Source: Henricia sp. BOLD:AAB3569
Taxonomy: Eukaryota > Echinodermata > Asteroidea > Spinulosida > Echinasteridae
Assembly: GCA_037783545.1 (NCBI GenBank)
Contig: JBBELK010000058.1
Coordinates: 124,001-188,000, forward strand
Length of the DNA: 64,000 bases
Reading direction: 5' to 3'
In this document: positions 24,101 through 47,800 of the stretch, one piece after another
Numbering within the stretch: position 1 is the stretch's first letter
Layout of the letters: each line of letters begins with the position of its first letter
Position numbers and translations under genes: made by a program
The notes under the pieces: generated by a model
Told to the model about the DNA's origin: nothing
The model's input: only the letters and a program-made list of their open reading frames with translations
Databases searched by the model: none

Positions 24101-27100
24101 CACCGTACATGCCTTTCTGAAATATGGACCTTTTTAACTCGCCCGCCGGACTACAAAGAGAAGGGTTTTGACTCGCCCGCCGCTGTTTTCACTCGCATTT
24201 GGCGAGCGGGCGACCGCTAAGGTCGAACCAGACTGCGGGGACTTTGCGTTGTACTGTTATGCCCCGCAAGTTAGGGCCGGGACCGCGCGGGGGTTGTCCA
24301 AAATGCCCCGCATGTCGGGGCCGGGATTGTGCGGGGGTTGTACTAAATGCCCCGCATGTCGGGGCCGGGATCGTGCGGGGGTTGTACAATAATACCCCGC
24401 ATACCGGGGCCGGGGTATAGCCGGAGATGTACAAAATCAAGTGCCCCGCAGGGCCGGGCACGTAGCGGGGACGTAGCGGGAGTGTCACGCTGGGCCACTT
24501 GGACATCCCCGGCCCAGTCCCCGCTAGTCCCGGGTCTCCCGGGGCCGGGATTACAATTGACAGGTGCATAATTGGCGGTCCCTTCGCTGTTGGATGTGGT
24601 AAATAAATAAATAAATAAATAAATAAAAGTAACCAAAGCAGGTCCCGTGTTGAATTTGTTGATTGTGTGCATCACAATGGCAACGTGAACAGTGATTCTC
24701 TCAAAACAACAACGCTAGGTTACACGTGCTATCGCGGGGTCACGCCAACGCACTGATCGTGAAGACATGTACTACGGGGAACAAGACAAAAATGGACGCA
24801 CCATGATAAAGGTCTATAGTGTTCACCGTAGGAAAGAATGGCATAAAGCAAGCAGACTGTTGGTTGCTAGGCAACGGCAGTGTTGTAGTCGAGTCACCAA
24901 AGTCGAGTCCGAGTCACTTTCCTCGAGTCACGAGTCACTCGGTCGCCAAAATAATGAAACTGAATCTGCTATAGTTTCGTTCACACAATGTGAAATTATG
25001 ACATGCTCGTGCGCTCCTTGCCGGCCTAGTGGGGCAGGGTACATAATTATCATCGTAGTGTGTTTTTCCCAAGAATCATGCATTAAGCGCGCGAATATTA
25101 TATATCTTTTTTTTTTTAAAAATTATGTGACACAATGAGTCACGAGTCATCATGTTTGAGTCCGAGTCATCATGGTCGAGTCCGAGTCATCATGGTCGAG
25201 TCCGAGTCATCATGGTCGAGTCCGAGTCATCATGGTCGAGTCCGAGTCATCATGGTCGAGTCCGAGTCATCATGGTCGAGTCTGAGTCATCATGGTCGAG
25301 TCTGAGTCATCATGGTCGAGTCGGAGTCATCATGGTCGAGTCCGAGTCATCATGGTCGAGTCCGAGTCATCATGGTCGAGTCCGAGTCATCATGGTCGAG
25401 TCCGAGTCATCATGGTCGAGTCCGAGTCATCATGGTCGAGTCCGAGTCATCATGGTCGAGTCCGAGTCATCGTGGTCGAGTCCGAGTCATCGTGGTCGAG
25501 TCCGAGTCATCGTGGTCGAGTCCGAGTCATCGTGGTCGAGTCCGAGTCATCTTGGTCGAGTCCGAGTCATCGTGGTCGAGTCCGAGTCATCGTGGTCGAG
25601 TCCGAGTCATCATGGTCGAGTCCGAGTCATCATGGCCGAGTCCGAGTCATCATGGTCGAGTCCGAGTCATCATGGTCGAGTCGGAGTCATCATGGTCGAG
25701 TCGGAGTCATTTTCCAATGCGACTCGAGTCGAGTCCGAGTCACGAAAAATGTGACTCTAGTCCGAGTCTTGAGTATACAACACTGGGCATTGGCGTACAC
25801 CACGTAGCAACATGTGACTTTCTTTAATAAACTGCACTTCCATTCGGGGTGAAATGTTTAAATGTTAAAATGTTTAAATGCACATACCATTCATTCAATG
25901 GTATTTGTGCCACTACCCTGATTACTGGAGGGTGGTGACCATCTTGTGGAATTCTTTTGTATTTTTGGTATGTCCTCCTGATACAATGTTTTGTTATTCA
26001 TTATCCACCATGACTGTACACCAGATATAAGGGAGTGCTACTTGCTGGTCTAGTGAGTTCTTTCTGTCCTGACTGCCCGTGACACTGCCTTTCGGGCTGT
26101 GCTTGAGCCGTAGTGCTGCCAAGTTTCTGCTAGTTGACTGTCATTTAACACTTATAAGTTACAGTATCGTTTGATAGTGCCGTTTTACAATCCTTTTTAA
26201 CTTTTTGCATTTGTGAAAGTACCTGCCTGAGCACATTGAGCTAAACAATTTGATAATAAAATTAAGCTTGAAGTGCCAATTTAAATAAATTTATTAAATA
26301 AATCAAATGTATACCTGTTGGTTTGAATGCCCTCTGTTGTCCTGAAATTTTATTGTACACCGACTCGGTTACACATGCAAAACCTAATTGAGGGCCGTTA
26401 CTTTGCTAACCCTATGATTACACACCCAGCTACTGTACAATGTATGACCATCACATCTCTGGTAAAATACATGTACATGTAGGCTATTACTTACTGCAGC
26501 CACTGTTAGCAGATCAAAGACCATTGTGCTGTACCTCCATGCATTGGCATTGCCGTACTTTGTCAGACATTCATCTGGAATATGGATCAAAGATAAAAAG
26601 TTAAAATCTTGTGGCAAGGCTGACTGCACAAGCCTCTGTAAGAACTGCTGAGGCAGGGTGCGCCACTCTGCCTGACATGCTTCGATCCTCGAGTCCAAGG
26701 GGGCGGGGTTAATTGGGCAATCTCGGAACCATGCATTATACCAGATGCACTATGATATGTTTTCACCTGGGGTACCGTGGCCGAGTGGTTTGGGTCATGG
26801 ACTCGCAATCATAGGTGAAAACTTGGGGTTGCGAACCTCCCCCCGGCCGCAGTACCTGTGCCCTTGAGCAAGGCACTCAACCACACGACTCCATCCTTTG
26901 GAAGAGATGTAAAGCCGTTGGTCCAGTGTGTTGGGTAACGGTAATATATGCACTTTAAAGATCCCAGAGCATTCTTTCGTGAAGAGCAACGGGATTCCCC
27001 AGTGTCTCTGGCCATTTCTAATTTCTAATTCTTCATGGGTTTCCTCACGCTTGCGAGTGACAGTGCAATGGGCACTTTTGAGGAATCCTTGGTATGAATA

Positions 27101-27151: not shown

Positions 27152-30100
27152 GGTTGTGTGGCTTTTTCTTAAGACACTATTATGTAATTTGTTTGTCTCA
27201 CAATAACTCCACATTTACGTTTCGGTGAAAATGCCAAAAACTAGGACTTGAACTTAAAGGGCCTGTGACATCCTAAACAACTTTGTGCCTAAGCTTTGCT
27301 TCATAATGACGGATTACTTGTTCAGCAAGACATACTATTGTTCGTTTGGATGTAAAATCAATAAAAGGTGGCATTTTTCAACTTTGAAGATTTCATTGCA
27401 ATAAATCACAGACAGAGGGCGCTGTTTTGAGTGCATCACATAAGGAAGACAGAAGGGAAAAGTTAAGAAAAAACATAAGACTTCAAGTTGGACTTGTGGC
27501 AAATTGCTGCAGTTTCTACACCCAGTTTTGTCATGGCTTACAGCAGGCAACATGTAAAACAAACTCAAACAACCATGGATTACAAAAGTTACAGGAAAAT
27601 TGAGAAAAAAGTGGAATCTTTTGTGCACAGTTCAATGTGATTTTCCTGTGTTTGCCTCTTGTGACGTCATGACCTTGGTCATGAATATGCATATTTTCAT
27701 TAGCATAAAAACTAAAAACCTTTGTTTTAACCCCCAAAGCAAGCTCCAAATAGGATTTTTATGACTTTAACTGAGTAAAGTGGTTTTAAAGCATAGATTT
27801 CATTGATAAAAATCCTAAATAAGGGGCCCTTTAAACTGTATGAAATATGAAGATGAACTGCGAAAAGGAGAATGGTTGAGTTCATGTGGAAATAGCAAGT
27901 CATTCTTATCTCACCTGCGGTTAATAGTTGAGAAAAAGTTGCTTTCGGGGATGACAAGATGACAAAATGGTTGATGGCTCTTCATGAGTCTGATAAAATG
28001 GAAACATATGAAAGATGGCAAACAATTTCATGTTTGTGAAATAACAAGCAAATAAATAAGTAAATGATATTAAGGCTGTGCCTAACGAATCGAATATTCG
28101 AATAGCATTTTACCAAATCGAATATTCGGTATGCTTTTACCACTCCAAACCAAACATGTCGTTCAGCTAGGAAGAAGTAAAAACTTTTTCCTTTGCCGAA
28201 ACGGCTGCTTTGATGTCATATTTGCATCCAACCACGAATCCAGTGTACAAGGGCCGACGATAATTTCTGCAAAAACCTCTTCGGGCAAGAGACTGCTATG
28301 CAAGTTACAACATAAAGTCTGTAGTTTGAGCACAGATTATTTTTTGAGGAGGAAAATTTGGCCATAAAAAGGCTGCTGTATTCCTGTGAGCTGCGAGTTC
28401 GGATGTGCCAAAATCAATTAATTTCACCGCAAACTTTTTGGTCAAAATCTTAGGAAAACATTCATGCATCGAATATCGAATATTCGATCGAAAATGAAAC
28501 CGATTTTTCGAATAGTAAACTATTGCACAATCCTAAAGGATATGTTGGATTTGAATAATAATAATAATATACTCGCACATCCACCCTGCAGAGTGCTCAA
28601 GGCGCTGTAAACAACAAGTAATTAATTCTTGAAAAATTTGCGACATCAAGTAAGTGATTTAATTGAACCTAGTTGTACAGTGGCATGATCCGAGTTCAAG
28701 TAGCAATGAATTCTAAAGTGTATAGTGTATAGTGGTACTTTCCTCGCCTTCCACCTCTGTGGCCCTGGTTCGAATCCCGTCCAGGTCAGTATGTGGATTA
28801 GGTTCTCATTTCCTGCTTGCTGATTCCATGGGGTTTCCCCTGTACAGAATTGTGTAAGGGATTTCCTCCCACCTCTAAAACTGATAATTTCTTCATCGTC
28901 TTCTCTTCACAGGTTTCTTCAGGCTAATGAGCTACAGTGCCTCGGGCACTTTTGAGGAATCCTTGGTTTCAATACCAGAAATAATGAATATAATAATAAT
29001 AATTTAAATAAACTGCATGTTCATCCTTTATACAAATGGCTGGGCAATTCCGTAGTGACTGACGTTACAGGTTTTGTATTCCCCAGGTTAATCAAGGGTG
29101 ATCCCCAACTTCTATCTAACTGAATAGCTAAGCCCCCATAGCTGTTAAAATAACTGTCACTTTGTTTACTAATGCAATATTGTATGCAGGGGAGCTCATT
29201 AAATGTGCGTGACTGACGTTACAAAAAAAGGACATGCAAAAAAATCAATCATCTTTATTTTCAATTTCTTCTCAAACTAATGATACATTCAAAATGGTTA
29301 TTTTACCCCTCAAAATAGAAGAGTTGGACCTAACAAACACACCATTTGGAGTCAGAAATATTGCATCAGTATATGTGTACACATGAAAATATGCGTGACT
29401 GACGTTACATGTGACTGACGTTACATTTTCTGTCATTACAACTTATAACAAAAACGTGGATACCACAATACCTACAAAACGGACAATACAAAGTGTCCTA
29501 TACAAATTTACAACCTTAAAGGCATACTCTAACCATCCTAAGTAGTTTCTAATAAATTTGGGTTGTTTTTTTTTCCCTCATGTCCACCTATTTGCGGAAT
29601 TGCCCGGCTATGGTACTGATGATTGTTATCATAATCCACCTATTGATGGCCATAACAGCTACATACATCTATCCAGTCTTACCATAGTATCCATAGACCT
29701 GGGTGGTTTGTCGACATTCATGGTTGCCACGTAGTAGCGTGATACGATCAGGCCATTTTGCCTTGAGAGTAAGTAACCTAGTGAAGGTTTCTAGGCTGTA
29801 GTAACCACGGTCTACGAAGTCACCCTGAGAACAAATGTGGATTGAGAGATGGTAATTCCCAAAAGTAGGGGTCCAAAAGTGTGACCTGCTTTTTAAGATT
29901 TCCAAGTGTTTTTAGTGATTAAATGTGGTTTCCCAGTAAAAAATAATTATTTTTATTTTAACAAATGCCACTTAAATTTAAAGGCACATGCTCGTCAGCA
30001 ATGCGCGCGCGCCAAATTCGTGCCACGAAATAAGCAGCTCCATGCTTTTGCTGTGGAGCTGCGTATTTCCTGGCACAACTTTGGCACGCGCGCAATGCTG

Positions 30101-33100
30101 GCGAGCCTGTGCCTTTAATGTTTGTGTGTAGATATGGCCAATTTTCGTTGGCGTAGGTAACCCGGGACACCAAACTCCTATTCAATACCATGGAACAAAT
30201 TATAAGCCTTTATGGTCTTTTGTTTTAAATATTGTTCAGGAATCAGAGAACAAAATATTTAAGAAAATGATGCTGCCCCCTATAAACACAGGCCACAGTC
30301 CATTACTAAGAATTTGTGATCATGAGTGGTGATCTTCGAAGCAGAGAGTGTCGTACGTAACTGGGACACCAAAAATGTTGGACCCCTAATTTTAGGAATT
30401 ACCCAGATATGCGATTTAATTATCTTGCATCGGGAAATGTATATTAATTAGGGTTTGTTTTTCCCTACCTGACGTAACTTCATTAGCCCTGTATACGACT
30501 TCCTGCATACTAAGCACACATCTTAACTACTCAATCACATACAGGATGCTCAACACTGGCCAGCTCTGTGGTGAAGTGGATAAGACGTCTGCCTAATAAT
30601 ATGCAGGAGGCCGTGGGTTCGAGTCCTACCTGAGCAAGCTATGAAGTTTTTTTCATAGTGTCTCGTGGAAGCTAGCACTATACTAGTTAGTATAAGGGCA
30701 AAACAAACCCTAATTAAAAACTGTGGATGCATTATACTGGTTAAGATTTTTTCCAGAAAATGGATTGATTATTCTAAGCTAACAATCATATAAAAAAAAG
30801 CCTCCCCATAATTCTATCCATGGGAAGAAAGCTAGGAAATTTGCAATCTTTGGTGTGATCACTGCAATATATTCTTTATGGAACTGGATAAATTAGTTTA
30901 CAAAACATTGGTGGTTTTTTGACAATATTCTTCAAAATATAGGGATGGAGAGCGCAAAATTTCAGAAGGGTAATGGGAAAAATATGACATTGGTATCAAA
31001 ATCTGAACACCCATGGGAAAAATGGGGGTGCCTCGAAAATGTGATTTGAACACGCTCCTTTGACAGACGACTTAAAGGCAGTATACATGATTGGTATCTT
31101 GAAAATCGGAAATGTTCACAGATTTACACCTATTCTTACACAATATATAAACATGATGACCGTAGAAAACTTCCCCTGAAATGGTTTTGTCTGAAGTGCT
31201 ATAGTCTTTGAAAAATTAGTAAAACGATTAGTTTTCGTCTCATGAGACGAAAATTCAAATCGCCCCAAAACCATTTCGCCCAAGTGCCATTTCGACCCCA
31301 AACCACTTCGCCCAAGTGCCATTTCACCCCAAATCACTTCGTCCAAACACTACATCACCCAAATGCCACTCGCCCCAAAACGATACTTCTTGCACAGGCC
31401 GTGGTTCAGGGTGAAATGGTTCAGGGCGAAGTGGTTTTTGGGGCGAAATGGCTGCAAACCCTTTTTTGCCTGTTTTATCAAAAGTTAAACGAAGTACAGG
31501 CTGGTTTTTGCTCAGGTTGGTTTTAATTATGCATACCTTCAATCACACAGGGGGATAAAACTATTTGTAACAGTTTACCAAAAACTATGGATGCTAGGAT
31601 AGGGCAACAATTTGTGTGTAAAAAAGGTATATTAGGGCGACACGCTCAATAGGGCGACATTTTGGTGTCGCCCTAATATTTTCTTTTTTTAAAATCATTT
31701 TTTTAGGTCAAAAACCATTTTATTTTTAATCGAGAACCATTTTTATTAGGTCTAGAACCGTCTCTTACATGTAGGTCTGTGACCATCTTTGGAAGCTTTG
31801 GGTAGAAAAATAAGGTGTCATTTTGAGTGATTCTTGCCGAAATTTTGGTGGTTCCCGGGGAGAGTCTTCCCGAAATGTCGCCCTATTGCTGCATCCAGAG
31901 TTCTTACAATCATAATACTATCTTTAAGTGTTACTCCAGTTACCTGGGTCTAAACATTCACTGGTAAATCTAAAACATCAATTTCTAAAGCACAGGGTAA
32001 CAGTTCACTGGTTTCAGTGTAGACCTAGTAACCTTGGCAACAGTTTCACTTTAGTAGTCTTTTATTCCACTTTCAAATGGAGGTGCAGTTTACAAAGTCA
32101 CATACTAAGCTGTTGTTGCTACGTGGCACATGTCGTTGCCACGTGCACCACACATAGACAAACATTTAGTCTGGTCAAGTGGATATTAAGTGTGCATGTG
32201 AAAGGAAGTACGTTCGTCATCAGGACACCAGACACTAATATTAATGTGAAACATGCAAAAGGCTAATTAGCTACTCCTGCAGCCGATTTCACGAATCCTT
32301 GCGTATAAGCCCGCTTAATTGCGCAACTTTTTATTGCGTAAGTTGCACAACATTCCTGTGATAATTACACGCAAGCCTATGGGCTTATGCCATTTTTAAA
32401 TGTTGCGCAAGCTACGCATTTTTTTGGTAAAATCGGCTGCAAGAAACGTCAAGAATAGTCAATGTCATTCAAAAGTGTAGTTGGTGATAGGCCTACCTAC
32501 CATGAATACGTAGTTGGTGTCCGGGACCTGGCCACCACATCTGAATAATTCTTCCAAATCGTAGAACTGAAATAAAAGTACATCGTGTAAATTATGATAG
32601 TTTCGGTATTAGTGATTAGAGACGATAAACTGAAAGCCCCATTACATTTTACAATAATGCACCAAAATTTAACTTCATGAAAAACAGGCTTTCTCAAAGC
32701 GTTGATGGCAATGGTAACAAACACAATTTCTTTTTTTTGGGTCCAAGTTAGCAACTGATGAACATGGTTGCAAAAGCAAATCAATGCATAGTTCCGACCT
32801 GTCAATCAAGCCGAACCCGCGACCAATCACAACAGAGCTAGCAGACGGCGCCCACAAAGGTCAAAGTGATGCAATCATCACAAACAATCCGCGATGTTCT
32901 GCCCATACAGTTTGTATGTTGTATGCGCCATTGACCGGGTGAATTTTGGTTTCAATGTCGGGCGATTCGCTGTTCAAAGGTAGGAAAGCGCATTTTTATG
33001 AAAGATATGTCATCCCTGCATTACTAGCCCTTCGCTCAGTGTGTGCTACGGTAACTGTCGACCTCAAAACATAAATACCGTTGGGTTTTCTCCAATGAAT

Positions 33101-35531
33101 CTGTGCTTTCCATGCCGAGTCCCGTTGCTTTGTACGTAGTCTCGCCATTTTTTTGCGATGGCTTGTGAGCACATAGCAACAATATCCAAGGGGGCGGGGT
33201 TAACTGGGCAATCTCGGAACTATGCATTTAGTGCTGAGCAAATATTTTTGCTTACTAGTCACAAATCTTACTTACCTGACCATGGATATCCCCACAGACA
33301 GTAACTGGAGTGGATACGGGCTGTACATTACATTCCTCCATCAGTAGGTCACACACATACTCACACAGTTTCTGTGTAGAGATTTGTCAAAAACAAAATT
33401 ACTTTACTTAAAGATAGTATACATGATTGGTAAACTGTTACAAATAGTTTGATCCCCCGGTGTGATTGAAGATATGCATGATTAAAACCAACCTGAGCAA
33501 AAACCAGCTCCGAAAACAGTCAAAAAAGGGTTTGCAGTCATTTCGCCCCAAAACCACTTCGCCCTGAACCATTTCGCCCTGAACCACGGCCTGTGCAAGA
33601 AGTGGTTTTAGGGCGAAGTAGCATTTGGGCGATGTACAGTGTTTGGATGAAGTGATTTGGGGCGAAATGGTTTTGGGGCGAATTGAATTTTCGTCTCATG
33701 AGACGAAAACTAATCGTTTTACTCATTTCACAAAGGCTATAGCACTTTAGACAAAACCATTTCAGGAGAAGTTTTCTACGGTCATCATGTCTTGTGGTCA
33801 CCTCATTGTACTGCAGTGACGTCATACAATGAGGTGACCACAAGAGGGCGGTATATCTCGACCCTCATTTGCTGTGCTAGTTTTACGTCAACGTCAAGCT
33901 GTTCTCTTCAGTAAACTCGGAAAATGTGAAGAAAAATTACGTTGGACTAGTTTTTGCCCTGTTTAAAAGAATCATCGGGGAAAATAGACCACGGTACTAG
34001 ATTATGGAGATTCCAGGGACTTCCATGGTGAGCTTTTCAATGTTTAATTTTGACTGTCGGGTCAAATTTCACTTTGGAGAACAGCCGCCATCTTGCCCGT
34101 GCAGCTTTGTTCAACGTGGGCGAATGGGGTTCAATTGGTAAGGGGCTAAAAGTGATTCATCACGACCCAATGTAAACATCAGAAAATCAATTTTAGCCTT
34201 CTAAAAGTAGGTACAGCGGATCGACCTTTGACATGTATCTTATAGACCGGTTACTGATCCTATCGCTTATTGCGGATTGCCATCTCTAGCGGCCAGGAAC
34301 CAATCTATACATGTCAAAGGTCCGCTGTACCAAATATGCTAATTCCATTGTGTGCGGGAAAACCCCAAATGGGTCTATTATAAAATAATATCACCAGCAA
34401 TGGCAACGAACATACATGTATATAAATTTATTTCTATCCACGATGGCACTTTCTGTAAAAAAAAAATTAACTGAACTGAAGGGGGTGTTTTATTAAAAAA
34501 TAAAATGTGTGCAACCACACTTTTTTACTATTCACTTGATTGAAGGAGCTTGTTCAGATTTCGTTCAGAAAATGGATTTCATATACTGAAACACAAAAGA
34601 AACTTACCACCTTTAAACCTTTAAATAGCAACAATAACACTGCGTGTAGTAATGTGTGAACTTATTTGTGGACAATAGTGTCCTCACTGTCAGACCAAAT
34701 GGTGTCTGAAGGTCACTTGAACCTTCAATGGTCACTTCACAGCACAGCTGTTGAACAGCTGTTTTGACTGTCAGTGATTAGCCAAGGGGTATGGGATGAT
34801 TGTAATGAGCTGCACGTGATGTCTTAATGTTGGCTTTAAAAAGGCCAGTGCAAAATGGGCATTTCAAGCAACATGCCAAGACTGGTAGGCAGTATGCGCC
34901 GACGACGCACTGCCTGTATCCAAATCAATGGTGGCCATCACACACGCTATTGAAAGGCGACTGACAATGTCTAATTGAAACATTGGAATTTTATTGATGA
35001 CATGTCAAATTTTTGACCAAGATACACCATAGAGCCTTGCTCTATGGATACACCATCTCATCAGTTTGTTCTACAGTAAAGAACAGAAGAAGGTGTAATA
35101 TGTCACTGTTTTAGCAATTGCTGGTTTGTTTTATTTTGAACTGTTACAATTTCATTACATTTTAAACAAGTGATAAGTTTCTTTTGCGTTTCAGTATATA
35201 AGAATAATATGACAAATGATATGTTATCAAAATTTCGATACCAATTGGAAAAAAAGGTTCAAAATGTAATCTGGACACGCTCCTTTAATAAACAAACTTT
35301 AAACCCCGCCCCTTTTTAACGCAGTCACCTCCTCGACTGCACTTCTAAAACCGATTCTCACTATTAAAAAAAGGTAACAGAAGCAGCTATATGCAAGATT
35401 AAATAAGCCCACACACTCTTAAAGTTTACAGTGTTTTATTTAACCTATTTTTGTCTCACTTTGAAGTCATTTTCCGGCAGATACTTGCACTCTTTCGCGA
35501 TCTCAATCCACCTGTCAATCGATCCAGACAT
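2929..35531 (-). CDS. PPP6C-like paralog, complete, 8 exons, 304 aa
   Basis: Ser/Thr protein phosphatase of the PP6/Sit4 branch. Exons in order: 35531-35460, 33371-33276, 32566-32501, 29824-29683, 26574-26495, 21488-21371, 19526-19435, 3177-2929 (915 nt with stop). All junctions are phase-consistent and the frame is open throughout. Metal and active-site motifs are present: [34 protein letters not shown] and the C-terminal PYFL. Identity to the neighbouring canonical copy is about 83% over exons 2-8 by hand count. Odd substitutions at conserved positions: RCGN to RGGN, SPRGAG to SSRGAG, GNHES to GNHEC, RYCTK to RYSTM. Intron positions match the canonical gene, so this is a DNA duplicate, not a retrocopy. 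It is probably expressed from the shared 276-bp promoter. Function as PP6 is inferred from family; a specialised role is possible. Confidence 0.88.
4483..4634. mobile_element. PIF/Harbinger-type MITE, TTA target duplication
   Basis: This 152-bp element has termini AGCGGGCCTCCCACTGTG / CACAGTGGGAGGCCCGCT and TTA on each side (4480-4482 and 4635-4637). TWA target duplication is the PIF/Harbinger signature. A second copy is at 19113-19243. Confidence 0.85.
4711..5001 (+). CDS. Unrecognised 96-codon open frame inside the 2.5-kb element
   Basis: The frame opens ATGAGCGCAACAGTG and encodes a stretch with FCGTCDKQW and a later Cys, then many charged residues. Its 3' end runs into the right subterminal repeat array. 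I do not recognise the product. It may be a remnant of an element-encoded protein or a chance frame. Confidence 0.2.
   Translation: MSATVFFKTCALYINKNLYFCGTCDKQWLDATEIKEDEIDWRASNVTYGSKCQGLKSDDDLSDVTWIHSKKLYWKKSEMRKEALKIDLFRHWNFLF
5798..6564. repeat. Inverted repeat, 304-bp arms, 159-bp spacer
   Basis: Arms 5798-6101 and 6261-6564 are exact reverse complements wherever compared, with no indel and no mismatch seen. The outer end reads ACAAAATCTGTGGCAAAC. Because the arms match, both carry the same open frame of about 90 codons (5831 rightwards on plus, 6531 leftwards on minus), with no recognised domain. Candidates are a very young fold-back transposon, a recent inverted duplication kept identical by conversion, or an assembly fold-back. 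Confidence 0.85.
6872..7018. repeat. Three tandem hairpin units, AGGTGATCGGG...CCCGATCACCT
   Basis: Three units of about 60 bp each hold a palindrome AGGTGATCGGG-loop-CCCGATCACCT, followed by ATCGTACGATTTCTTTGTC and a T-run. CCCGATCACCT is also the sequence ending the array units to the right (9630, 13235, 16355, 18065), so these look like fused or collapsed unit termini at the array's left edge. Confidence 0.75.
7041..9666. repeat. Array unit 1
   Basis: First unit of the higher-order array. It is very similar to unit 3 including the segment GTTTGAGGGCGCTATGCC (8763) and the terminal hairpin GCGTTTGT...ACAAACGC (about 9633-9655). Confidence 0.7.
10558..12479. other. 1.9-kb insertion interrupting array unit 2
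   Basis: Unit 4 reads straight through at CCCTAATAGATACTTG, whereas here CCGTAATA and TAGATACTTG are separated by 1.9 kb. The join is compatible with a TA duplication. The insert contains no recognised gene. It is AT-rich in its second half and contains a strong hairpin at 11941-12040. No clear terminal inverted repeats were seen. Confidence 0.6.
11941..12040. repeat. AT-rich hairpin
   Basis: Arms TAAGCAGGTTTGATTATTAC and its complement at the right end enclose a near-complete palindrome of about 45-50 bp per arm, centred on AAGTAAATACTT. Probably a small fold-back element. Confidence 0.75.
13036..13158. mobile_element. Fold-back MITE, CAGCAGCCGATTTCACG family, copy 1
   Basis: This 123-bp palindrome reads CAGCAGCCGATTTCACG at the left and CGTGAAATCGGCTGCTG at the right, with arms of about 50 bp. 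It sits at the same place in array units 2 and 4, so it predates the block duplication. A related, longer copy is at 32280-32440. Confidence 0.8.
13269..16400. repeat. Array unit 3, with internal duplication
   Basis: Very close to unit 1. It carries an extra copy of the segment around GATGTCATGACCCCTGTG, seen at both about 14243 and 14734. Confidence 0.7.
16401..18107. repeat. Array unit 4, last
   Basis: Close to unit 2 without its 1.9-kb insertion. Ends GGCGTTTGTAACAACAAACG and then unique sequence. Confidence 0.7.
17874..17996. mobile_element. Fold-back MITE, CAGCAGCCGATTTCACG family, copy 2
   Basis: This 123-bp palindrome is almost identical to 13036-13158 and lies at the equivalent position in array unit 4. 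Confidence 0.8.
18108..18737. other. Intronic sequence without a recognised gene
   Basis: No exon is recognised. A 50-bp segment around GCTCTGCCCTGGTAGTACTG (18535) recurs at 50367, so a repeat remnant is present. Confidence 0.35.
18738..19416. mobile_element. Inverted-repeat element carrying a nested Harbinger MITE
   Basis: The left end reads CCCTCTCACACACGG and the right end GTGTGTGAGGGG, with GGGCGCAAGC / GCTTGCGCCC just inside. The interior repeats CAACTCGTG-like and AACTCGTA-like words. The TTA-flanked MITE at 19113-19243 is inserted within it. It ends about 20 bp beyond exon 7 of the PPP6C paralog. Confidence 0.65.
19113..19243. mobile_element. PIF/Harbinger-type MITE, second copy
   Basis: This 131-bp element has the same termini as 4483-4634 (AGCGGGCCTCCCACTGTG) and TTA duplicated at 19110-19112 and 19244-19246. 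Confidence 0.85.
19435..19526 (-). CDS. PPP6C paralog exon 7
   Basis: This 92-nt exon encodes [15 protein letters not shown] then [13 protein letters not shown]. It begins in phase 1 directly after an AC dinucleotide and ends before GTAAGG. The proline of the usual SPRGAG motif is Ser here, but the active-site Arg is kept. Confidence 0.92.
19527..19548 (-). promoter_or_regulatory. U12-type 3' splice region (AC end, branch motif) of the paralog
   Basis: The intron ends AATCAC. TTCCTTAGC at 19548-19540 differs at one position from the U12 branch consensus TTCCTTAAC and lies about 15 nt from the splice site. It pairs with the ATATCCTTT donor at 21370-21361. Confidence 0.75.
19656..19835. mobile_element. 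TA-flanked MITE, CCGTAATTTTCGG family
   Basis: This 180-bp element has termini CCGTAATTTTCGGAATAT / ATATTCCGAAAATTACGG and TA on both sides. The interior has several ATAAGCCGC words. TA duplication suggests a Tc1/mariner-type mobiliser. Confidence 0.8.
19912..20626. mobile_element. Inverted-repeat element, TGGGTCATATTAATAAAAAC termini
   Basis: Left terminus TGGGTCATATTAATAAAA and right complement TTTTATTAATACGACCCA frame about 715 bp. Words CTAGCATTTGCT and AGTATTTACT recur inside. No open frame of note. Confidence 0.7.
20747..21010. mobile_element. MITE, TATACACCAATCCGG family, copy 1
   Basis: Left ATTATACACGAATCCGGTT and right GCTCGGATTGGTGTATA are inverted, each followed inward by a CCGCCAT / ATGGCGG and CCCAGCTATGGCGG block. 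It is related to 21540-21888 and to short fragments in array units 2 and 4. Confidence 0.65.
21152..21180 (+). repeat. Poly-G tract
   Basis: A run of almost uninterrupted G (with one T) follows a GGGGGGCGGTG block. Homopolymers of this length are often mis-sized in assemblies. Confidence 0.8.
21361..21370 (-). promoter_or_regulatory. U12-type AT-AC 5' splice site of the paralog
   Basis: Read on the minus strand, exon 6 ends TTCTGTG and the intron starts ATATCCTTTT, which fits the U12 AT-AC donor consensus ATATCCTTT exactly. Confidence 0.85.
21371..21488 (-). CDS. PPP6C paralog exon 6
   Basis: This 118-nt exon follows TTTTTGCAG and encodes [16 protein letters not shown] and onward to HKGPFC. 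It ends in phase 1 at the AT-AC donor. CVHGG carries a metal-ligand histidine. It has ten differences from the canonical exon, more than exons 2-5. Confidence 0.93.
21540..21888. mobile_element. MITE, CCAGTATACACC family, CGT flanks
   Basis: This 349-bp element has termini CCAGTATACACCAATCCGG / CCGGATTGGTGTATACTGG. CGT directly flanks both ends (21537-21539 and 21889-21891), a likely 3-bp duplication. Open frames on the plus strand are low-complexity and not credible genes. A segment just right (21892-21970) recurs inverted at about 32110-32213. Confidence 0.8.
22031..24628 (+). mobile_element. tRNA-Leu-like SINE, split by a Harbinger-like element
   Basis: The head GGGGTGTTATAGCCGAGCGG and GGTTCGATTCC are pol III A- and B-box-like and resemble a tRNA-Leu. 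They are followed by CCTTGAGCAAGGCACTCAAC. The SINE breaks at CTGTAA (22176) and resumes at 24569 with TAATTGGCGGTCC, ending in an (AAAT)n tail. The uninterrupted copy at 50440-50642 confirms the join. Confidence 0.85.
22177..24568. mobile_element. Harbinger-like 2.4-kb element with GC-rich subterminal arrays, TAA duplication
   Basis: Termini TGCACCTGTCAATTGTAA / TTACAATTGACAGGTGCA are inverted, and the SINE target TAA is duplicated (22174-22176, 24569-24571). Inside the left end are about five roughly 54-bp units with GCCGGGGTTGTACAA and GCCCCGCT. Inside the right end are related units of about 45 bp with CGGGGGTTGTAC. The core has a 101-codon frame (23717-24022) with RRRR-containing sequence that may be a remnant of an element protein, but this is weak. 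No intact transposase. Confidence 0.8.
24895..25140 (+). repeat. GAGTC-ended repeat, copy 1
   Basis: Starts with GTCGAGTCCGAGTCA words and contains TTCACACAATGTGAAATTA and CGTGCGCTCCTTGCCGG. A shorter copy lies inverted at 57425-57690. The copy here runs directly into the minisatellite. Confidence 0.7.
25141..25740 (+). repeat. 20-bp minisatellite, about 30 copies
   Basis: The unit GAGTCATCATGGTCGAGTCC repeats with an exact 20-bp period (three per 60 bases). Variants are CATCGTGG in a central block and TCGGAG near the start and end. Since 20 is not a multiple of 3 and no frame has a stop, all three plus frames stay open and give the same 20-residue repeat in shifted register. There is no evidence that it is translated. 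Confidence 0.95.
25803..26494. other. Intron sequence, nothing recognised
   Basis: AT-rich, no clear inverted repeats or exon. It includes the intron immediately 3' of the paralog's exon 5 on the minus strand. Confidence 0.35.
26495..26574 (-). CDS. PPP6C paralog exon 5
   Basis: This 80-nt exon after ATTCCAG encodes (D)[14 protein letters not shown], then [12 protein letters not shown], and ends before GTAAGT. Human PPP6C and the canonical copy read CTKVF where this has STMVF. Confidence 0.93.
26770..27150 (+). mobile_element. tRNA-derived SINE with (AAT)n tail
   Basis: The head GTACCGTGGCCGAGTGG is tRNA-Ser/Leu-like, followed by CCTTGAGCAAGGCACTCAAC. The 3' body has GGGCACTTTTGAGGAATCC and a long AAT repeat. 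The 3' body is shared with 28700-29008. It probably begins close to a fragment of the GCATAGTTCCGA MITE (26698-26740). Confidence 0.75.
27254..27834. mobile_element. TTAA element, GGGCCTGTGACA family, copy 1
   Basis: This 581-bp element has TTAA ends and termini TTAAAGGGCCTGTGACA / GGGGCCCTTTAA. It is highly similar to 43916-44495 in opposite orientation. It lies between exons 5 and 4 of the paralog. The long open frames in it are shared by both copies but match no known domain. Confidence 0.8.
28075..28545. mobile_element. Probable hAT-type MITE with TCGAATATTCGA motifs
   Basis: The left end GGCTGTGCCTAACG and right end TATTGCACAATCCTA are imperfectly inverted. ATCGAATATTCG recurs near both ends. 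The family assignment is from resemblance only. Confidence 0.45.
28700..29008 (+). mobile_element. SINE copy with (AAT)n tail
   Basis: Has a B-box-like GGTTCGAATCCC and the 3' body GGGCACTTTTGAGGAATCC, ending in an AAT-rich tail as in 26770-27150. Confidence 0.65.
29038..29613. mobile_element. MITE with four GTGACTGACGTTACA motifs
   Basis: Termini GGCTGGGCAATTCCG / CGGAATTGCCCGGCT bound about 575 bp. GTGACTGACGTTACA occurs four times (about 29056, 29210, 29395 and, adjoining the last, 29410). It lies 70 bp from exon 4 of the paralog. Confidence 0.65.
29683..29824 (-). CDS. PPP6C paralog exon 4 (GDFVDRG, GNHE)
   Basis: This 142-nt exon after GTTCTCAG encodes [16 protein letters not shown] onward to [16 protein letters not shown], ending before GTAAGA in phase 1. 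The first 102 nt differ from the canonical exon 4 at only 4 silent sites, while the last 40 differ at 11. Confidence 0.95.
29978..30118. mobile_element. TTAA MITE, GGCACAGGCTCG family, copy 2
   Basis: This 141-bp element has TTAA at both ends and a CG-rich interior with AATGCGCGCGCG. Same family as 1838-1982. Confidence 0.8.
30548..30650 (+). mobile_element. tRNA-like SINE head (Thr-AGT-like)
   Basis: CAACACTGGCCAGCTCTGTG followed by an A-box-like GTGGATAAGAC and B-box-like GGTTCGAGTCC. A cleaner copy is at 50938-51080. Both sit between short flanks reading AATTAGGGTTTG and CAAACCCTAATT. The cloverleaf is degenerate, so this is a SINE and not a tRNA gene. Confidence 0.6.
30745..31066. mobile_element. 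Diverged TTAA element of the GGAGCGTG family
   Basis: Ends GAACACGCTCCTTTGAC and shares most of its length, inverted, with 44547-44911. It lacks a clean TTAA at the left end. Confidence 0.5.
31072..31588. mobile_element. TTAA element with internal TTCGCCCC repeats
   Basis: Begins TTAAAGGCAGTATACATG, passes through many ACTTCGCCCC / GGGGCGAAG words arranged as inverted blocks (31250-31450), and ends AACTATTTGTAACAGTTTACC. The complete relative is 48471-48882; a truncated one is 33408-33790. Confidence 0.65.
31590..31899. repeat. Inverted-repeat element with TAGGGCGACA words
   Basis: GGATGCTAGGATAGGGC at the left and GCCCTATTGCTGCATCC at the right are inverted. TTAGGGCGACAC and GTGTCGCCCTAA form an inner hairpin (about 31631-31678). 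Confidence 0.55.
31900..32279. other. Intron sequence with a shared 80-bp repeat
   Basis: No exon seen. Positions 32110-32213 resemble 21892-21970 in inverted orientation (GTGCATGTGAAAGGAAGTACG). Confidence 0.35.
32280..32440. mobile_element. Fold-back MITE, GCAGCCGATTTCACGAA family, copy 3
   Basis: Left GCAGCCGATTTCACGAA and right complement ending AAAATCGGCTGC, about 160 bp, with imperfect inner arms. Related to 13036-13158. Confidence 0.65.
32501..32566 (-). CDS. PPP6C paralog exon 3
   Basis: This 66-nt exon after TTATTTCAG encodes [16 protein letters not shown] and TNYVFM, ending before GTAGGT. Two residues differ from the canonical copy. Confidence 0.93.
32785..33226. mobile_element. 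MITE, TGCATAGTTCCGA family, copy 1
   Basis: Termini TGCATAGTTCCGA / TCGGAACTATGCA bound about 440 bp that is highly similar to 42879-43309 and, inverted, to 51180-51619. All three lie in PPP6C or paralog introns. A short open frame on the minus-oriented strand (starting ATGGCGAGACTACG) is preserved but unrecognised. Confidence 0.8.
33276..33371 (-). CDS. PPP6C paralog exon 2 (GDIHGQ)
   Basis: This 96-nt exon after CTCTACACAG encodes [17 protein letters not shown] onward to [10 protein letters not shown] and ends before GTAAGT. GDIHGQ supplies the first metal ligands. Confidence 0.95.
33408..33790. mobile_element. Truncated TTAA element with TTCGCCCC repeats
   Basis: Begins TTAAAGATAGTATACATG and runs through GGTAAACTGTTACAAATAG and ACTTCGCCCC blocks. 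It is inverted relative to 48471-48882 and passes into the repeat at 33790-34210. Confidence 0.6.
33790..34210. repeat. Dispersed repeat, inverted partner at 41440-41820
   Basis: Contains AATGAGGTGACCACAAGAGG, AGCCGCCATCTTGCC and ATTTTAGCCTTCTAAAAG, all found in reverse at 41440-41820. One copy lies in the paralog's intron 1, the other in the canonical gene's intron 1, so it could be an ancestral flank or a transposon. Confidence 0.6.
34211..34330. mobile_element. Fold-back MITE, GTACAGCGGA termini
   Basis: GTACAGCGGATCGACCTTTG at the left and CAAAGGTCCGCTGTAC at the right, with ACATGTAT / ATACATGT just inside; about 120 bp. Confidence 0.75.
34331..35459. other. Intron 1 of the paralog, mostly unrecognised
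   Basis: AT-rich. A fragment of the TTAAAGGAGCGTG element family ends here with GGACACGCTCCTTTAA (about 35272-35288), and TTTCAGTATATA is inverted at 34580/35191. No exon seen. Confidence 0.4.
35460..35531 (-). CDS. PPP6C paralog exon 1 (start codon)
   Basis: ATG at 35531-35529 opens 24 codons: [15 protein letters not shown] then KYLPENDFK, ending at a GTGAGA donor in phase 0. KYLPEND is shared with human PPP6C and the neighbouring gene. The start is fixed by homology to the canonical first exon. Confidence 0.92.
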
Positions 35532-35807
35532 GTTGATTGGTTGTCGTCTAATCGGTTGTCGGACGCTTCGCCCCATTTCCACTTCGCCCCATGTCAGTTC
35601 GCCCCATACCACTTCGCCCCATTACTGACTGCCGGCTAAATAGCATAGGTGGGGCGAAGTGGCGATGGGGCGAAGTGGTAATGGGGCGATGTGGTATGGG
35701 GCGAACTGACATGGGGCGAAATGGGGCGAAGTGACTGTAAAGCGTCTAATCAATACTGATCAACAGAGGGCGCTATTCCGTTTATCAGACAACCTGCAAC
35801 TTGCATC
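35532..35807. promoter_or_regulatory. Shared divergent promoter of the two PPP6C genes
   Basis: The two start codons face away from each other across 276 bp, so both 5' UTRs and core promoters must lie here unless upstream exons exist. No TATA box is evident. On the minus strand CGACAACCAAT and CGACAACCGAT occur directly upstream of the paralog ATG. Most of the rest is the TTCGCCCC hairpin. Whether transcription starts here is inferred, not shown. Confidence 0.7.
35566..35731. repeat. TTCGCCCC hairpin within the divergent promoter
   Basis: The left arm (35566-35625) is built of ACTTCGCCCCAT-like words and the right arm (35678-35731) of their complements, ATGGGGCGAAGT. GTCTAATC occurs on both sides (35546-35553 and 35744-35751), which could be an 8-bp target duplication. 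The same words fill TTAA elements in introns (31250-31450, 33540-33690, 48600-48735). Confidence 0.85.
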
Positions 35808-35885
35808 ATGGCGGAACCTTCGTCGGTTGAAAGATGGATCGACATCGCAAAACAGTGCAAATATCTTCCCGAAAACGATTTAAAG
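35808..35885 (+). CDS. PPP6C: PPP6C exon 1
   Basis: Twenty-six codons starting [16 protein letters not shown] and ending KYLPENDLK before GTAAAG. The context TTGCATCATGG is acceptable for initiation. Confidence 0.95.
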
Positions 35886-41800: not shown

Positions 41801-44800
41801 AGATGACCACAAGAGGGCGGGATATCTGGGCCCTGTTAACCGTAAGAAAATATATAATAATGCCTACCAAATACAAATATTGACTGCTTTTTATTCGGGT
41901 AATGGTTAAGATTATATGCCCTCGGTGATCTCGAAGCCATGACTACCGGGTATGCCCCTCAGCTTCCGCCTTGGGACATAGTCATGGCTTCGAGATCACC
42001 TTGGGCCTATAATCTTAACCATGCCCCTCATTGCAGTCAATATTTGTTTACTATACCGCCCACTGCGCCGACACATGGCAAGTCGACCTGCAAATTTTCA
42101 TCGCTTTTATCTTTTTTTATTGAGTGCTTTGGTGTACACTTTTCCATAGAAACTCTGTGACTACGTATGCGATCTCCTTCTGGAGGAGTCGAACGTTCAG
42201 CCTGTATCAACTCCAGTGACAGTATGTGGGGATATACACGGCCAGGTAAGCCTCAACTAACTAGTCCATGCCTTTTTAAATCGATTGCCTGCAAACTGTC
42301 TTGACATATTAAGAACTGACCATCATGCATGGTGAATAGACTGTATAAAATAGCTGCCATCTTGTAGGGCAGTTTCTTCGTTCCTTAAGGAAATGCATTG
42401 CATGGTTGCACTTTTTATGCTTACATTGTTGACCAATTTAAATGTCAAAAGTTGCCCTACAAGATGGCAGCTATTCGATACGTTCTATTCTGTCGGTCGG
42501 TGCCACGTAACATCCAAAAGGACTGGAGTGAAAACAGTGGTGTGCCCATGGTGACAAGCGAAGGAGCAAAGCTGTTGTCTACGCAACATGTACATGTACA
42601 TGTACATGTATCTCAGCATGAACGAATTTGTTTTCACTCCAGTCACGGTGCTATGCCCATGCAAAGGCATACCGGTATGACACAGGGTCACAAAAGTGCC
42701 AGGATCTCAACCGACGGAATATAATGTGCACTGTATACAAATTTAACAAAATAATTCCATACACACTGCTTGCCATCATTAACCAGTACTGTCCCAAACA
42801 GAATGAAATCTTTAGTTTCCTAAACAGGGTGAAGTCCAAATCGCAAGTGATTAAGCTTAAAGTCTGAGTTGAACTGAATGCATAGTTCCGACCTGTCAAT
42901 CAAGCCGAACCCGCGACCAATCACAACAGAGCTAGCAGACGGCGCCCACAAAGGTCAAAGTGATGCAATCATCACACAATCACTGCCCATACAGTTTGTA
43001 TGTTGTATGCGCCAGTGACCGGGTGAATTTTGGTTTCAATGTTGGGCGATTCGCTGTTCAAAGGTAGGAAAGCGCATTTTTATGAAATATATGGCACCCC
43101 TGCATTACTAGCATTTCGCTCAGTGTGTGCTACGGTAACTGTCGACCTCAAAACATAAATACCTTTGAGTTTTCTCCAATGAATCTGTGCTTTCCATGCC
43201 GAGTCCCATTGCTTTGTACGTAGTCTCGCCATTTTTTTGCGATGGCTTGTGAGCACATAGCAACAATATCTAAGGGGCGGGGTTAACTGGGCAATCTCGG
43301 AACTATGCATTGTGAGTTAGGGGCTATCCATAAAGTACATACGCATGGAGGAGGGGGGCGGAGGTTAAGATTAATTGCGTATCTAACCGCAAAGAGCTCG
43401 GTATCGAACCATCTGCCAACGCGAAACCAAAATCTTGGGTTCTGATCCGGGGCCAATTTGGTCCCGAGAGCGTTTACACTCAGTTTGTGATACGGAGCTG
43501 ATCCCGAGCTCTGTGTTCGACCCTGAGCTTGGAATCATGTGTAAACAGGGTGTAATGTATGGGAACCAGTGTATGGAATTCTTTGCAGATCCACATTATC
43601 ATCACGACAATGTTTCCCTCGCACTTCCAGTTATAGCATGTAGAACTTCAATAGTTCTTGAGTTACAAAATACAAGTTAGATTTACTTTGAATGTCTTTT
43701 CTGCTTGTTCTCTTCAGTTTTATGATTTAGAGGAACTGTTCAGGACAGGAGGCCAGATCCCCGACACCAACTACGTGTTCATGGTGAGAAATCGTCTGAC
43801 GTGACTTTGTAAATAACCAGAAAAGTGACAAAAGTTGGCCATGCCTCTTGAAAAATGGGAAGTTAAGTGGACGTACAGTTTCAGACTATTGTTTTGAGTA
43901 GATTTCCCAGTAACTTTAAAGGGCCCCTTATTTAGGATTTTTATCAATGGAATCTATGCTTTAAAACCACTCTACTCAGTTAAAGTCATAAAAATCCTAT
44001 TTGGAGCTTGCTTTGGGGGTTAAAACAAAGGTTTTTAGTTTTTATGCTAATGAGAATATGCATATTCATGACCAAGGTCACTATGTCACAAGAGGCAAAC
44101 ACAGGAAAGTCACATTCAACTGTGCACAAAAGATTCCACTTTTTCTCAAACGTCCTGGAACGTTTATAATCCATGACTGTTTGAGTTTGTTCTACATGTT
44201 TCCTGCTGTAAGCCATGATAAAACTGGGGGAGAAAACCGCAGCAATTTGCCACAAGTCGAACTTGAAGTCTTATGTTTTTTCCTAACTTTTCCCTTCTGT
44301 CTTCCTTATGTGATGCACTCAAAACAGCGCCCTCTGTCTGTGATTTATTGGAGTGAAATCTTCAAAGTTGAAAAAGGCCACCTTTTATTGATTTTACATC
44401 CAAACGAACAATAGTATGTCTTGCTGAACAAGTAATCCGTCATTATGAAGCAAAGCTTAGGCACAAAGTTATTTAGCATGTCACAGGCCCTTTAAGTGGA
44501 TGTACAGTTTCAGACTATTGTTTTGAGTAGATTTCCCAGTAACTTTAAGCAGCGTGTCCAGATCACGTTTTTGAACCCCCTTCCCCATTTTCCCTATGGG
44601 TGTTCATTGCTAAGATTTTGATACCATATCATTTGTCATATTTTTCTCATTACCATTCTGAATTTTTGCGCTCTCAATCCGTGTATTTTCAAGGGTATCG
44701 TAAAAAAAAAACACCAATGTTTTGTAAACTAATTTGTCCGGTTATATAAAGCAGTGCAGTGATTACACCAAACGTTTTGCTTCCACATCCAAATTGGAGA

Positions 44801-47800
44801 TTGCAATATTTCTGTTTTCTTCCCATGGATAGTATTTTGGGGAGATTTTTATATGATTGTTAGGTTAGAGCAAAATCTATTTTCTGGAAAAATCTGGAGA
44901 AGATCCTTTAAAACAGTGTCATAAAATTACAGATTCTAAACTTGACACATTTTAAAGAACTTTTCTCCTCAATCTACATTTTAATTCACAGGGTGACTTC
45001 GTAGACCGTGGTTACTACAGCCTAGAGACCTTCACTAGGTTACTCACACTCAAGGCAAAATGGCCTGATCGTATCACGCTACTCCGTGGCAACCACGAAA
45101 GCAGGCAAATCACTCAGGTCTACGGGTTTTATGGTAAGACAGCAAGTTTTCCTTTTATCTTAGGCCTAAAAAATTATGAAAATCTCTGATCAGAATTTGT
45201 TTCGGGGTGCATATACAATATTCTCCGCTGGCCGACAATTTGTCCGGGTGCGCTGAGCAGCGTCCTCAAGCGGCAAACACTGACCAACCCTCTGTTCGCC
45301 TCATGAGGGCATTGTTTAAAATGTCCGTGATCGGCCGTGATTGACCATGGATTTGTTCGCCGCTGCGATTGATATGCGTGGTAAGTACAGTAAACTCTCA
45401 TTACAACGCGCCCTGATAGTACGCTCTTTCAGATATAACGCTAAATTTTTCAAGTCCCGGCCATTCCCCTATTGAATTGTGTACATTTTCTTTGGTTACA
45501 GCGCTCTCGGTTACAGCGCTAATACAGATACAGCGCTCAATGTTCATTTCAAGTCCCTGGAACGATACATTATGTGTAAAATGACTCCTGTTATAACGCT
45601 CCTAACCTGAGAGTTTTACAGAGTGGTCCAGTCCTTCGTAAAGCGTGTAAAGTACATGTATGTTATTTTTTTAGCGGCAACTCGCTCTCGTCGCACATGC
45701 TGCATTCATAAAACGATGCATCGAGCGCAATCGCTGCTGTCAGCTAGCATGCATTGCACGTGTCTGGACACGGACCCACATTTGGTTTACAGTCAACTCG
45801 ACCGTTTGCGAACTCAACTCTTTCTGATCTTGTAGCGCGATTTTGTGCCTATCTTCACGCGAATCCTCTGTCGGCCCCACGCGAATCACGCGAAAGCGAA
45901 ATTTTATTATTTCCCCATGGTTTAACTTCTTTCTGCTTGCGCAAAGATTAGCAGGGAAATGTTAGACTTCATCAGTTTTGCCGATGATTCGCCTTCGCTT
46001 CGCTTTTGCAAACCGTCACTTTTGACTCGATTAAGTTTGAACGCACAACGGTCGAGTTGACTGACCTGCACCCACCGAGTCTAGTCTAGTGGGCGATGTA
46101 GCACATGTGGCACGGACCTTCAAATTATGTGCATGGGGGGTTTGCTTTTGTGGCTAGCTTTCAAAAATTACGGGCTTATAAAGTAATTAAATGTTTAGCT
46201 TATTGGACAAGTATTGTATTAACTTTTTTATGGAAAAACCAGAATTGTCTCTAGTATATCGTTATTTCGTAAAATATTGGGGAAAATACATGTCATACGT
46301 CACCCCTTGCATAAAATGCTCTATCTAGACCATACAACACGTGATCGCGCTGTCTAGTCTAGGGCTGCTCCGCGTCCGCGAGGGAGCGATAGGATCGTGC
46401 TGTGCCTAGCTGGCATGCACGGCCGGCCTATAGCCTGCCTGAGAGTCGAGTCCGGCGTTGAGCCGTGTTGAACCCCAACCGTTAATTTTTTGACAATTTA
46501 CGGCGCATTTATCATGCCTATTGTCATGTGGAGGATTTACGTTTAGCGCCCCAAAACATGCCCACAGTTAGAACGTCTGCTAAACTACATGTACGTCGGA
46601 CAAATTTAGCCTTTTAACCGTGGGAAAACTGAAAACATTCCCGACTTGTATCGGTAGGTTTCGGGCGGTATCCGGATATGGGACTCCTTCCTTTTTTTAT
46701 TTCGTTTTTCACTTTACTCACCAAAACCCAACTAAAGGCTAATGTATTAGTCAGCCAAAATGACAACTTAATTAAGTGTCCATATTTCTCACTTTCTATT
46801 TTGTGGTTATTAACTGAAAACGAAATAACACAAACACGTCACAAGATACTTGGAGAAATGATCGTTTTATTTGTCTGTCATAACAACACAAGCAGTCCAA
46901 GAACTCTTCTCTGTGATAAAAATACAAATACATGACACAGTAAAAATCTCCTGATTTTGCGACGCACGTCATACCTTCGATGTTTTTACTGTACATGTAC
47001 ACACATATGTATGTACTCTACATGTACCGTGCATTACATGTACATGTACTGTGCGTACATGTGTACATGTACATGTGTATCGCTTACTGCGCTATCTGGA
47101 TATAGCGCTCGCAAAAAAAGTTCTGTCCCTCGAAGAGCGCTATAACAAGAGTTTACTGTAAACGATAATGACGATAGTGGCTAGCGAATCATGTTTGGCG
47201 AATTTACACCTAATTTTGCCATACTTCTGAAATGGCTTGTTGTCTGGGCGGCCGAGTTTTTTGTCCGGGCGGCAAATTTTTGTCCGGGCGCTAACAGTAC
47301 CTCTGATGATTTTTGTCTGGCTGCGCCGCCCAGACAAAACAGGTAGTGGAGAACCCTAGAAGCATCATGACATGCATCAGAATTGTTCATAACATTAATT
47401 GAAAAAGTACCCCCCTCCCTCCAAAATACTACTTATCAACATCTTTTCACCAGCGATTTGACAGTGCATGTAAAGTCCTACGCGGCTCCCCCTCCAACCA
47501 CACCCCTCCCCCTTTCTGTGCTTTGTAGTACCGCGAAATGTTGACAACTTTAGACGGCACCTCGAGTATCAACTTGTGCTAGGTATTACCAAACTATGCT
47601 GTTTTATGTTTATTTTGTTATCTCTCTTAACACAGATGAATGTCAGACTAAGTACGGCAATGCCAATGCGTGGAGATACTGTACCAAAGTGTTTGATCTT
47701 CTAACTGTTGCTGCTGTAAGTATTAAACATCCCTTTGGTTTAAAGGAGCGTGACCAGAGTTTCTGGAAAATAGTTTTCGATGTAACTTACCAATATTATC

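Follow-up and report, generated by a model that had tools for sequence, protein, structure and literature searches.

A head-to-head pair of PP6 catalytic-subunit genes

The window, i.e. the whole 64,000-nucleotide stretch of DNA analysed here, contains two PPP6C genes that diverge from a short central gap. The first-pass annotation had described them as complete genes on opposite strands with ATGs 276 bp apart and equal intron phases, and on all these points the gene models agree with it. The minus-strand gene (M) begins at 35531 and the plus-strand gene (P) at 35808, head to head, with 276 bp between the start codons (35532-35807). Both frames are open from ATG to stop across eight exons, encoding 304 aa in M and 306 aa in P.

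35460..35531, minus strand: M exon 1 of the diverged PPP6C copy, ATG at 35531; ATG..AAA, then gtgaga
33276..33371, minus strand: M exon 2, GDIHGQ motif
32501..32566, minus strand: M exon 3, gene model
29683..29824, minus strand: M exon 4, GDFVDRG and RGNHE; holds the patch of low synonymous divergence
26495..26574, minus strand: M exon 5, gene model
21371..21488, minus strand: M exon 6, CVHGG; followed by the AT-AC U12-like intron
19435..19526, minus strand: M exon 7, gene model
2929..3177, minus strand: M exon 8 and stop, protein end ...TTPYFL
35808..35885, plus strand: P exon 1 of the apparently conserved PPP6C copy, ATG at 35808
42150..42245, plus strand: P exon 2, gene model
43718..43783, plus strand: P exon 3, gene model
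44992..45133, plus strand: P exon 4, partner of the conversion-like patch
47636..47715, plus strand: P exon 5, gene model
49050..49167, plus strand: P exon 6, followed by the AT-AC U12-like intron
51983..52074, plus strand: P exon 7, gene model
52940..53188, plus strand: P exon 8 and stop, gene model

Exons 2-8 are of the same size in M and P (96, 66, 142, 80, 118, 92 and 249 nt), and exon 1 differs in length by two codons. Intron positions match at 7/7 introns and cumulative phase agrees at all of them (0,0,0,1,0,1,0). This includes the AT-AC, U12-like intron 6, which has the donor ATATCCTTT in both genes and a branch-like element, TTCCTTAGC 13 nt upstream of the acceptor in M and TGCCTTGAC 11 nt upstream in P. 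In length, PPP motifs and PYFL C-terminus, both proteins resemble the catalytic subunit of PP6, a PP2A-like member of the PPP family.

A hairpin transposon in the intergenic gap

Most of the gap consists of a hairpin (foldback/MITE-like) transposon copy.

35532..35553, minus strand: non-transposon sequence upstream of M, 22 bp, one 8-bp duplicate included
35546..35553, no strand: left copy of the target-site duplication GTCTAATC, 8 bp (9 bp counting the preceding C)
35554..35743, no strand: transposon copy, 190 bp, inserted between M and P
35744..35751, no strand: right copy of the target-site duplication GTCTAATC, 8 bp
35744..35807, plus strand: non-transposon sequence upstream of P, 64 bp, one 8-bp duplicate included

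The arms of the element are 96% complementary along 47 nt, and the minus strand of 35532-35751 is predicted to fold at -120 kcal/mol, compared with -60.3 ± 4.5 kcal/mol in 200 shuffles. The family is dispersed over many sites in the genome with unrelated flanks: 185 matches were found among 40 scored of 691 first-look candidates. Among those 40, the closest other match is 95% identical over 119 bp, with shorter pieces reaching 99%, and one locus (L071) has the same two ends as the copy described here. Target duplications of 8-10 bp accompany six copies, this one included; at five loci with both ends (L018, L020, L021, L062 and L063) no clear target duplication was seen by eye. Flanks are common to L018, L020 and L021 and, separately, to L062 and L063. 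The element is foldback/MITE-like: with these non-autonomous DNA transposons it shares long inverted arms of short repeats as well as dispersed copies and 8-10 bp target duplications; at 190 bp it is too short for a transposase.

Consequences for the putative promoter

Without the insertion, the empty site would place the start codons only 78 bp apart, and a single, very compact divergent promoter would then have served both M and P, provided that they did not start elsewhere. An inverted 7-mer in this 78-bp site (GGTTGTC/GACAACC) is no better than chance (526/5000 shuffles). The transposon would have entered the gap much later than the gene duplication. A leader that ran across the hairpin would include a stem of about -120 kcal/mol, which suggests that M and P are now transcribed from starts on their respective sides of it; the start of M would then lie in the remaining 22 bp or within the near arm of the transposon.

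The 190-bp transposon, which takes up most of the 276 bp, weakens the proposal that this gap acts as one small promoter for both genes; competition or co-expression between M and P is possible. A divergent promoter spanning the whole gap, with co-expression or competition and with a transposon that is mere padding or even beneficial, strikes us as conceivable but rather doubtful. The locus resembles head-to-head pairs with bidirectional promoters in its opposite strands and in a gap below 1000 bp, the usual limit (PMC2871058). Human divergent pairs with a median TSS distance near 95 bp show the less biased co-expression (PMC12672016), although the distance here is from ATG to ATG, not between TSSs. 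However, a dispersed repeat makes up 190 of the 276 bp, and over 500 bp centred on this region the CpG observed/expected ratio does not stand out (73rd percentile of the 64-kb window). Unlike the usual pairs, moreover, M and P are paralogous to each other, and the transposon with one copy of its target duplication occupies 198 of the 276 bp.

It is unlikely that the gap is no promoter and that one or both genes start from a non-coding exon further upstream or from a promoter at some distance. The 22 non-transposon bp upstream of the M ATG are short for a leader and a core promoter, and a CAG (TTTATCAG) 19 nt upstream of the P ATG, noticed by eye, could serve as an acceptor. On the other side, no pyrimidine-rich acceptor was seen by eye beside the M ATG, and an upstream exon of M would need to sit past P exon 1 or inside the hairpin.

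Divergence and fate of the two copies

Of 301 aligned residues, the M and P proteins have 249 in common. Synonymous sites approach saturation (dS about 1.8: 1.84 by NG86, 1.77 by YN00 and 1.05 by LWL85; overall pS 0.69), with dN at 0.10 and dN/dS about 0.055. Exon 4 departs from this pattern with a 30-codon stretch nearly devoid of synonymous change (lowest 30-codon pS 0.14, reached in 6/20000 shuffles; 1/20000 for 40 codons). The patch is best read as recent gene conversion. Constraint at the RNA or DNA level is a less convincing, though tenable, explanation: exon 4 downstream of the patch and the intron that follows it have no excess M/P similarity, but similarity does extend beyond the coding sequence to the end of intron 3, with a local score of 24 against 13-16 at the corresponding end of the six other introns (a comparison made without a shuffle test).

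P looks like the conserved PPP6C copy by comparison with a hand-entered human PPP6C sequence, to which P is identical at 272/305 residues and M at 241/304. Departures from it number 37 M-only and 7 P-only sites, an asymmetry that depends on that hand-entered sequence; with human PP2A as the outgroup there is none (11 M-unique vs 11 P-unique sites). The M-only changes comprise C264G, at the position of PP2A Cys269, and 36 others. M is diverged and yet under purifying selection. Decay of M into a pseudogene is highly improbable: among residues common to human PP2A and the human PPP6C sequence used here, M does alter 10/170 and P 5/170, but M keeps 304 open codons across eight exons with consensus splice sites despite the near-saturated synonymous sites, its dN/dS with P is low, and it retains all PPP metal and phosphate motifs (catalytic motifs 6/6). 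Both genes look functional when judged by sequence.

Origin of the pair

PPP6C is usually single-copy in animals; here two copies lie in one genome. The mitochondrial sequence marks the genome as that of a sea star. A genome-wide search with the P protein gave 40 matches, of which 15 on contig C58 correspond to the eight P exons and to all M exons but the first, which the search missed. The remaining 25 fall on different contigs with 38-76% identity, and no third PP6-like gene was found in this search. A four-sequence tree favours neither a sister nor a non-sister relation of M and P (AU p 0.46 vs 0.60), and the duplication may be older or younger than the split from vertebrates. Recognised neighbouring genes are absent from the duplication. 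A retrocopy origin is ruled out, because introns and phases came along with the duplicate.

The inverted paralogue pair reported by the first-pass annotation is real: the assembly has some redundancy, e.g. a mitochondrial multimer contig, but misassembly, or the head-to-head joining of an allelic haplotig, has a negligible chance of explaining two intact frames within a 2.47-Mb contig. Synonymous divergence between the copies is far above allelic levels, and their introns resemble each other only through repeats: in side-versus-side blastn, two matches link corresponding introns (1 and 3), each of them a dispersed repeat. Two intact and so diverged frames also exclude chance.

The PP6 catalytic-subunit gene of this sea star was duplicated long ago, inverted and head to head, as DNA. 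We consider it probable that this old duplication had a compact ancestral promoter, was later invaded by the hairpin, and now has each gene starting on its own side. Since P kept the conserved sequence and M, itself selectively constrained, retains every PPP metal and phosphate motif, the sea star probably makes two PP6 isoforms.

Two complete PPP6C genes on opposite strands

The window holds two PPP6C genes arranged head to head, a diverged copy on the minus strand (M) and an apparently conserved copy on the plus strand (P). Gene models with eight coding exons each bear out the first-pass annotation, which had described a complete opposite-strand pair with start codons 276 bp apart and equal intron phases; all seven introns agree in both position and phase. 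An origin by retrocopying is ruled out by the seven introns common to both copies. Splice sites are GT-AG throughout M and P, the one exception being intron 6, an AT-AC intron in each gene.

Gene models and intron 6
35531 to 2929, minus strand: M gene, 8 coding exons
35808 to 53188, plus strand: P gene, 8 coding exons
19527-21370, minus strand: intron 6 of M, AT-AC, U12-like
49168-51982, plus strand: intron 6 of P, AT-AC, U12-like

U12-type introns carry the donor ATATCCTTT and a branch site like TTCCTTRAC near the acceptor. The donor of intron 6 is exactly ATATCCTTT in both genes, and the branch site, which matches the U12 consensus at 8 of 9 positions in each, lies 13 nt (M) and 11 nt (P) from the AC acceptor. 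A literature search for PPP6C with a minor or U12-type intron found none.

The encoded proteins, of 304 (M) and 306 (P) amino acids, are identical at 249 of 301 aligned residues. Both match the PPP catalytic domain PF00149 (E = 1.6e-41 for M, 1.6e-44 for P) and retain all six of the PPP metal/phosphate motifs tested. Identity to a provisional human PPP6C sequence is 79% for M and 89% for P, while identity to human PP2A (PDB sequence) is 57% for each. Judged by identity to these two references, M and P are nearer to PP6 than to PP2A. The closest solved structures to M are human PP2A catalytic subunits.

Age and extent of the duplication

A search of the genome (740.7 Mb, 2104 contigs) with P as the protein query raised 57 candidates; all were scored, and they yielded 40 matches. 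Fifteen lie on the contig of the window and correspond to the eight P exons and seven of the eight M exons, the latter 60-81% identical to P; exon 1 of M was missed. The other 25 (38-76% identical) belong to genes that by appearance are PP2A-like, PP4-like and others. Two of the genes labelled PP2A-like by eye (G000:C147:1918468-1921064 and C86:408388-410545) lie on different contigs with matching exon layouts and are either uncollapsed alleles or recent paralogues.

Between M and P, 69% of synonymous sites and 9% of non-synonymous sites differ. Because of this synonymous-site difference, they can be neither alleles nor haplotigs. The estimated dS is 1.84 (NG86), 1.77 (YN00) or 1.05 (LWL85), and a dN/dS of about 0.055 indicates constraint on the pair. 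The duplication is old. A four-sequence tree is compatible both with M and P as sisters (AU 0.46) and with P grouping with human (AU 0.60); with exon 4 omitted, the values were 0.24 and 0.82. Literature searches for a PPP6C duplicate, PPP6C in starfish or PP6 in sea urchins returned nothing relevant, and a search on head-to-head inverted paralogues found no paper.

Elsewhere in the assembly, the 16,221-bp mitochondrial contig C2104 translates sensibly under the echinoderm code. Its genes, placed by eye, are cox1, nad4L, cox2, cox3, nad3, nad4, nad5 and cob on one strand, with nad1, nad2 and nad6 opposite, which we take to be the sea-star arrangement. A second contig (G000:C955, 48,576 bp) carries three head-to-tail mitochondrial cox1 copies spaced 16,221 bp apart and is a mitochondrial multimer produced by the assembly.

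The nearest recognised genes are SURF6 and OGG1 (plus strand) to the left of M and RO60 (minus strand) to the right of P, so that M and P are each convergent with a neighbouring gene. For none of the three was an inverted counterpart present on the far side of the axis in C58:94001-208000 (C58 being the contig of the window). The left-right comparison of this region gave 75 matches, none touching the reading frames used for the neighbours (one of SURF6, one of OGG1, two of RO60); the tail of the OGG1 frame matches a dispersed repeat only. A large segmental palindrome was therefore dropped, and the duplication seems to have involved PPP6C only.

Ancient intron sequence common to M and P was likewise dropped, since the two same-intron blastn matches between the two sides, in intron 1 (78% over 325 columns) and intron 3 (73% over 357), are both dispersed repeats, with 1430 and 5763 first-look candidates in the genome, respectively (40 scored each).

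Dispersed repeats
33898-34209: repeat of about 310 bp in M intron 1, with a relative in P intron 1
30748-31060: repeat of about 310 bp in M intron 3, with a relative in P intron 3

Several further repeats were seen. Intron 1 of P shows, by eye, nested inverted repeats (36100-36300 with 39620-39740, and 36476-36540 with 38936-38990) with units ACTCGTACGC and CCGTCAACTG; between them lies a minus-strand reading frame (37301-37606) with a match to DDE_3. M intron 5 contains a minisatellite at 25137-25710 (a 20-bp unit repeated 28.6 times, with 97% matches), and a tRNA-like stretch at 30560-30650 with a B-box-like GGTTCGAGTCC appears by eye to be a tRNA-derived SINE.

Divergence of the two copies and an exon-4 patch

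Relative to the provisional human PPP6C, 37 sites are changed in M alone and 7 in P alone (binomial p = 5e-6). With human PP2A as the reference, the unique sites are equal, at 11 each. Among the 170 sites common to human PP2A and the provisional human PPP6C, 10 are changed in M and 5 in P. One change in M, C264G in exon 8 (2929-3177), places glycine at the position of PP2A Cys269, which we take to be the residue attacked by covalent phosphatase inhibitors. This position adjoins the active site and is cysteine in P, the provisional human PPP6C and human PP2A.

Synonymous divergence between M and P falls to pS 0.37 in exon 4, versus 0.59-0.86 across the seven remaining exons. The minimum over 30 codons is a pS of 0.14 at M residues 79-108, which 6 of 20000 codon shuffles reached (1/20000 for 40 codons, 510/20000 for 20 codons).

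Low-divergence patch
29717-29846 (M, minus strand) and 44968-45100 (P, plus strand), approximate: near-identical synonymous patch, exon 4 towards intron 3

Near its end, intron 3 of M and P is identical at 16 of 18 aligned columns, with one mismatch and one gap; its score of 24 compares with 13-16 at the same end of the six other introns. The best explanation is probably a short, relatively recent gene conversion between the inverted copies. Synonymous constraint may instead account for the low divergence in exon 4, and we rank it below gene conversion.

A hairpin transposon between the start codons

Most of the interval between the two ATGs (35532-35807) is occupied by a foldback- or MITE-like element.

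Intergenic element
35554-35743: 190-bp hairpin element, between two copies of GTCTAATC

The flanking copies form an 8-bp target-site duplication, and removal of the element with one GTCTAATC leaves 78 bp between the ATGs. The terminal inverted arms (47 nt, 96% complementary) are built from TTCGCCCC-type units, and the ends read GG[TA]TGTCGGACGC and GCTTTACAGTCAC. A genome search with 35540-35770 gave 185 matches among 40 scored of 691 first-look candidates. The copies are dispersed, with unrelated flanks; among the matches listed, the closest is 95% identical over 119 bp, with up to 99% in shorter pieces.

Both ends are present at 11 of the loci read, and six of these carry flanking direct repeats, 8, 8, 8, 9, 9 and 10 bp long (the intergenic copy, L071, L036, L037, and the L040/L041 and L042/L043 pairs). 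By eye, the other five (L018, L020, L021, L062, L063) have no clear flanking repeat; they represent two distinct sites, L018/L020/L021 having common flanks and L062/L063 likewise. A literature search on starfish foldback elements found nothing relevant. TTCGCCC-type repeats in introns of both genes (31240-31460, 33540-33680 and 48603-48882) look related to the element by eye.

The element was rejected as the cause of the inverted duplication, as its relatives are 95-99% identical whereas the synonymous sites of M and P are near saturation; its own target duplication also argues against this role.

Implications for transcription

The distance of 276 bp, measured between start codons rather than transcription starts, compares with a 1000-bp criterion for divergent starts. 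The earlier proposal that this interval is a divergent promoter holds in part: only 78 bp once separated the start codons, but most of the present 276 bp is transposon. As RNA, the minus strand of 35532-35751 folds with -120 kcal/mol (z = -13.2); the entire interval folds as DNA with -86.7 (z = -12.6). Leaders with stems that stable are poorly scanned. If M and P are both expressed, transcription of each would most likely start on the gene's near side of the stem. Alternatively, one promoter may act across the element, or the genes may have distant promoters. A conserved inverted promoter motif was rejected (the 7-mer was reached in 526 of 5000 shuffles, and the local alignment of the M-side and P-side upstream regions was equalled in 451 of 5000), as was a CpG-island promoter.

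A bolder, speculative reading, which we consider rather unlikely, has a duplicated essential phosphatase relying for long on one 78-bp divergent promoter until a hairpin transposon halved it; this would have uncoupled a second, fast-evolving PP6 from the conserved one, the two still exchanging sequence through gene conversion.

Pairs in head-to-head orientation, paralogue pairs and insertions into promoters are each already known; the history of this pair is clear and testable. Old inverted paralogues with a tiny gap provide a natural test of whether divergence is possible despite a common promoter. The insertion is placed almost to the base, so that comparing populations or sister species that carry it with those that lack it would directly reveal the effect of a hairpin on divergent starts. 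A second sea-star PP6 isoform, if real, would offer a naturally occurring variant of a phosphatase that is otherwise very conserved.
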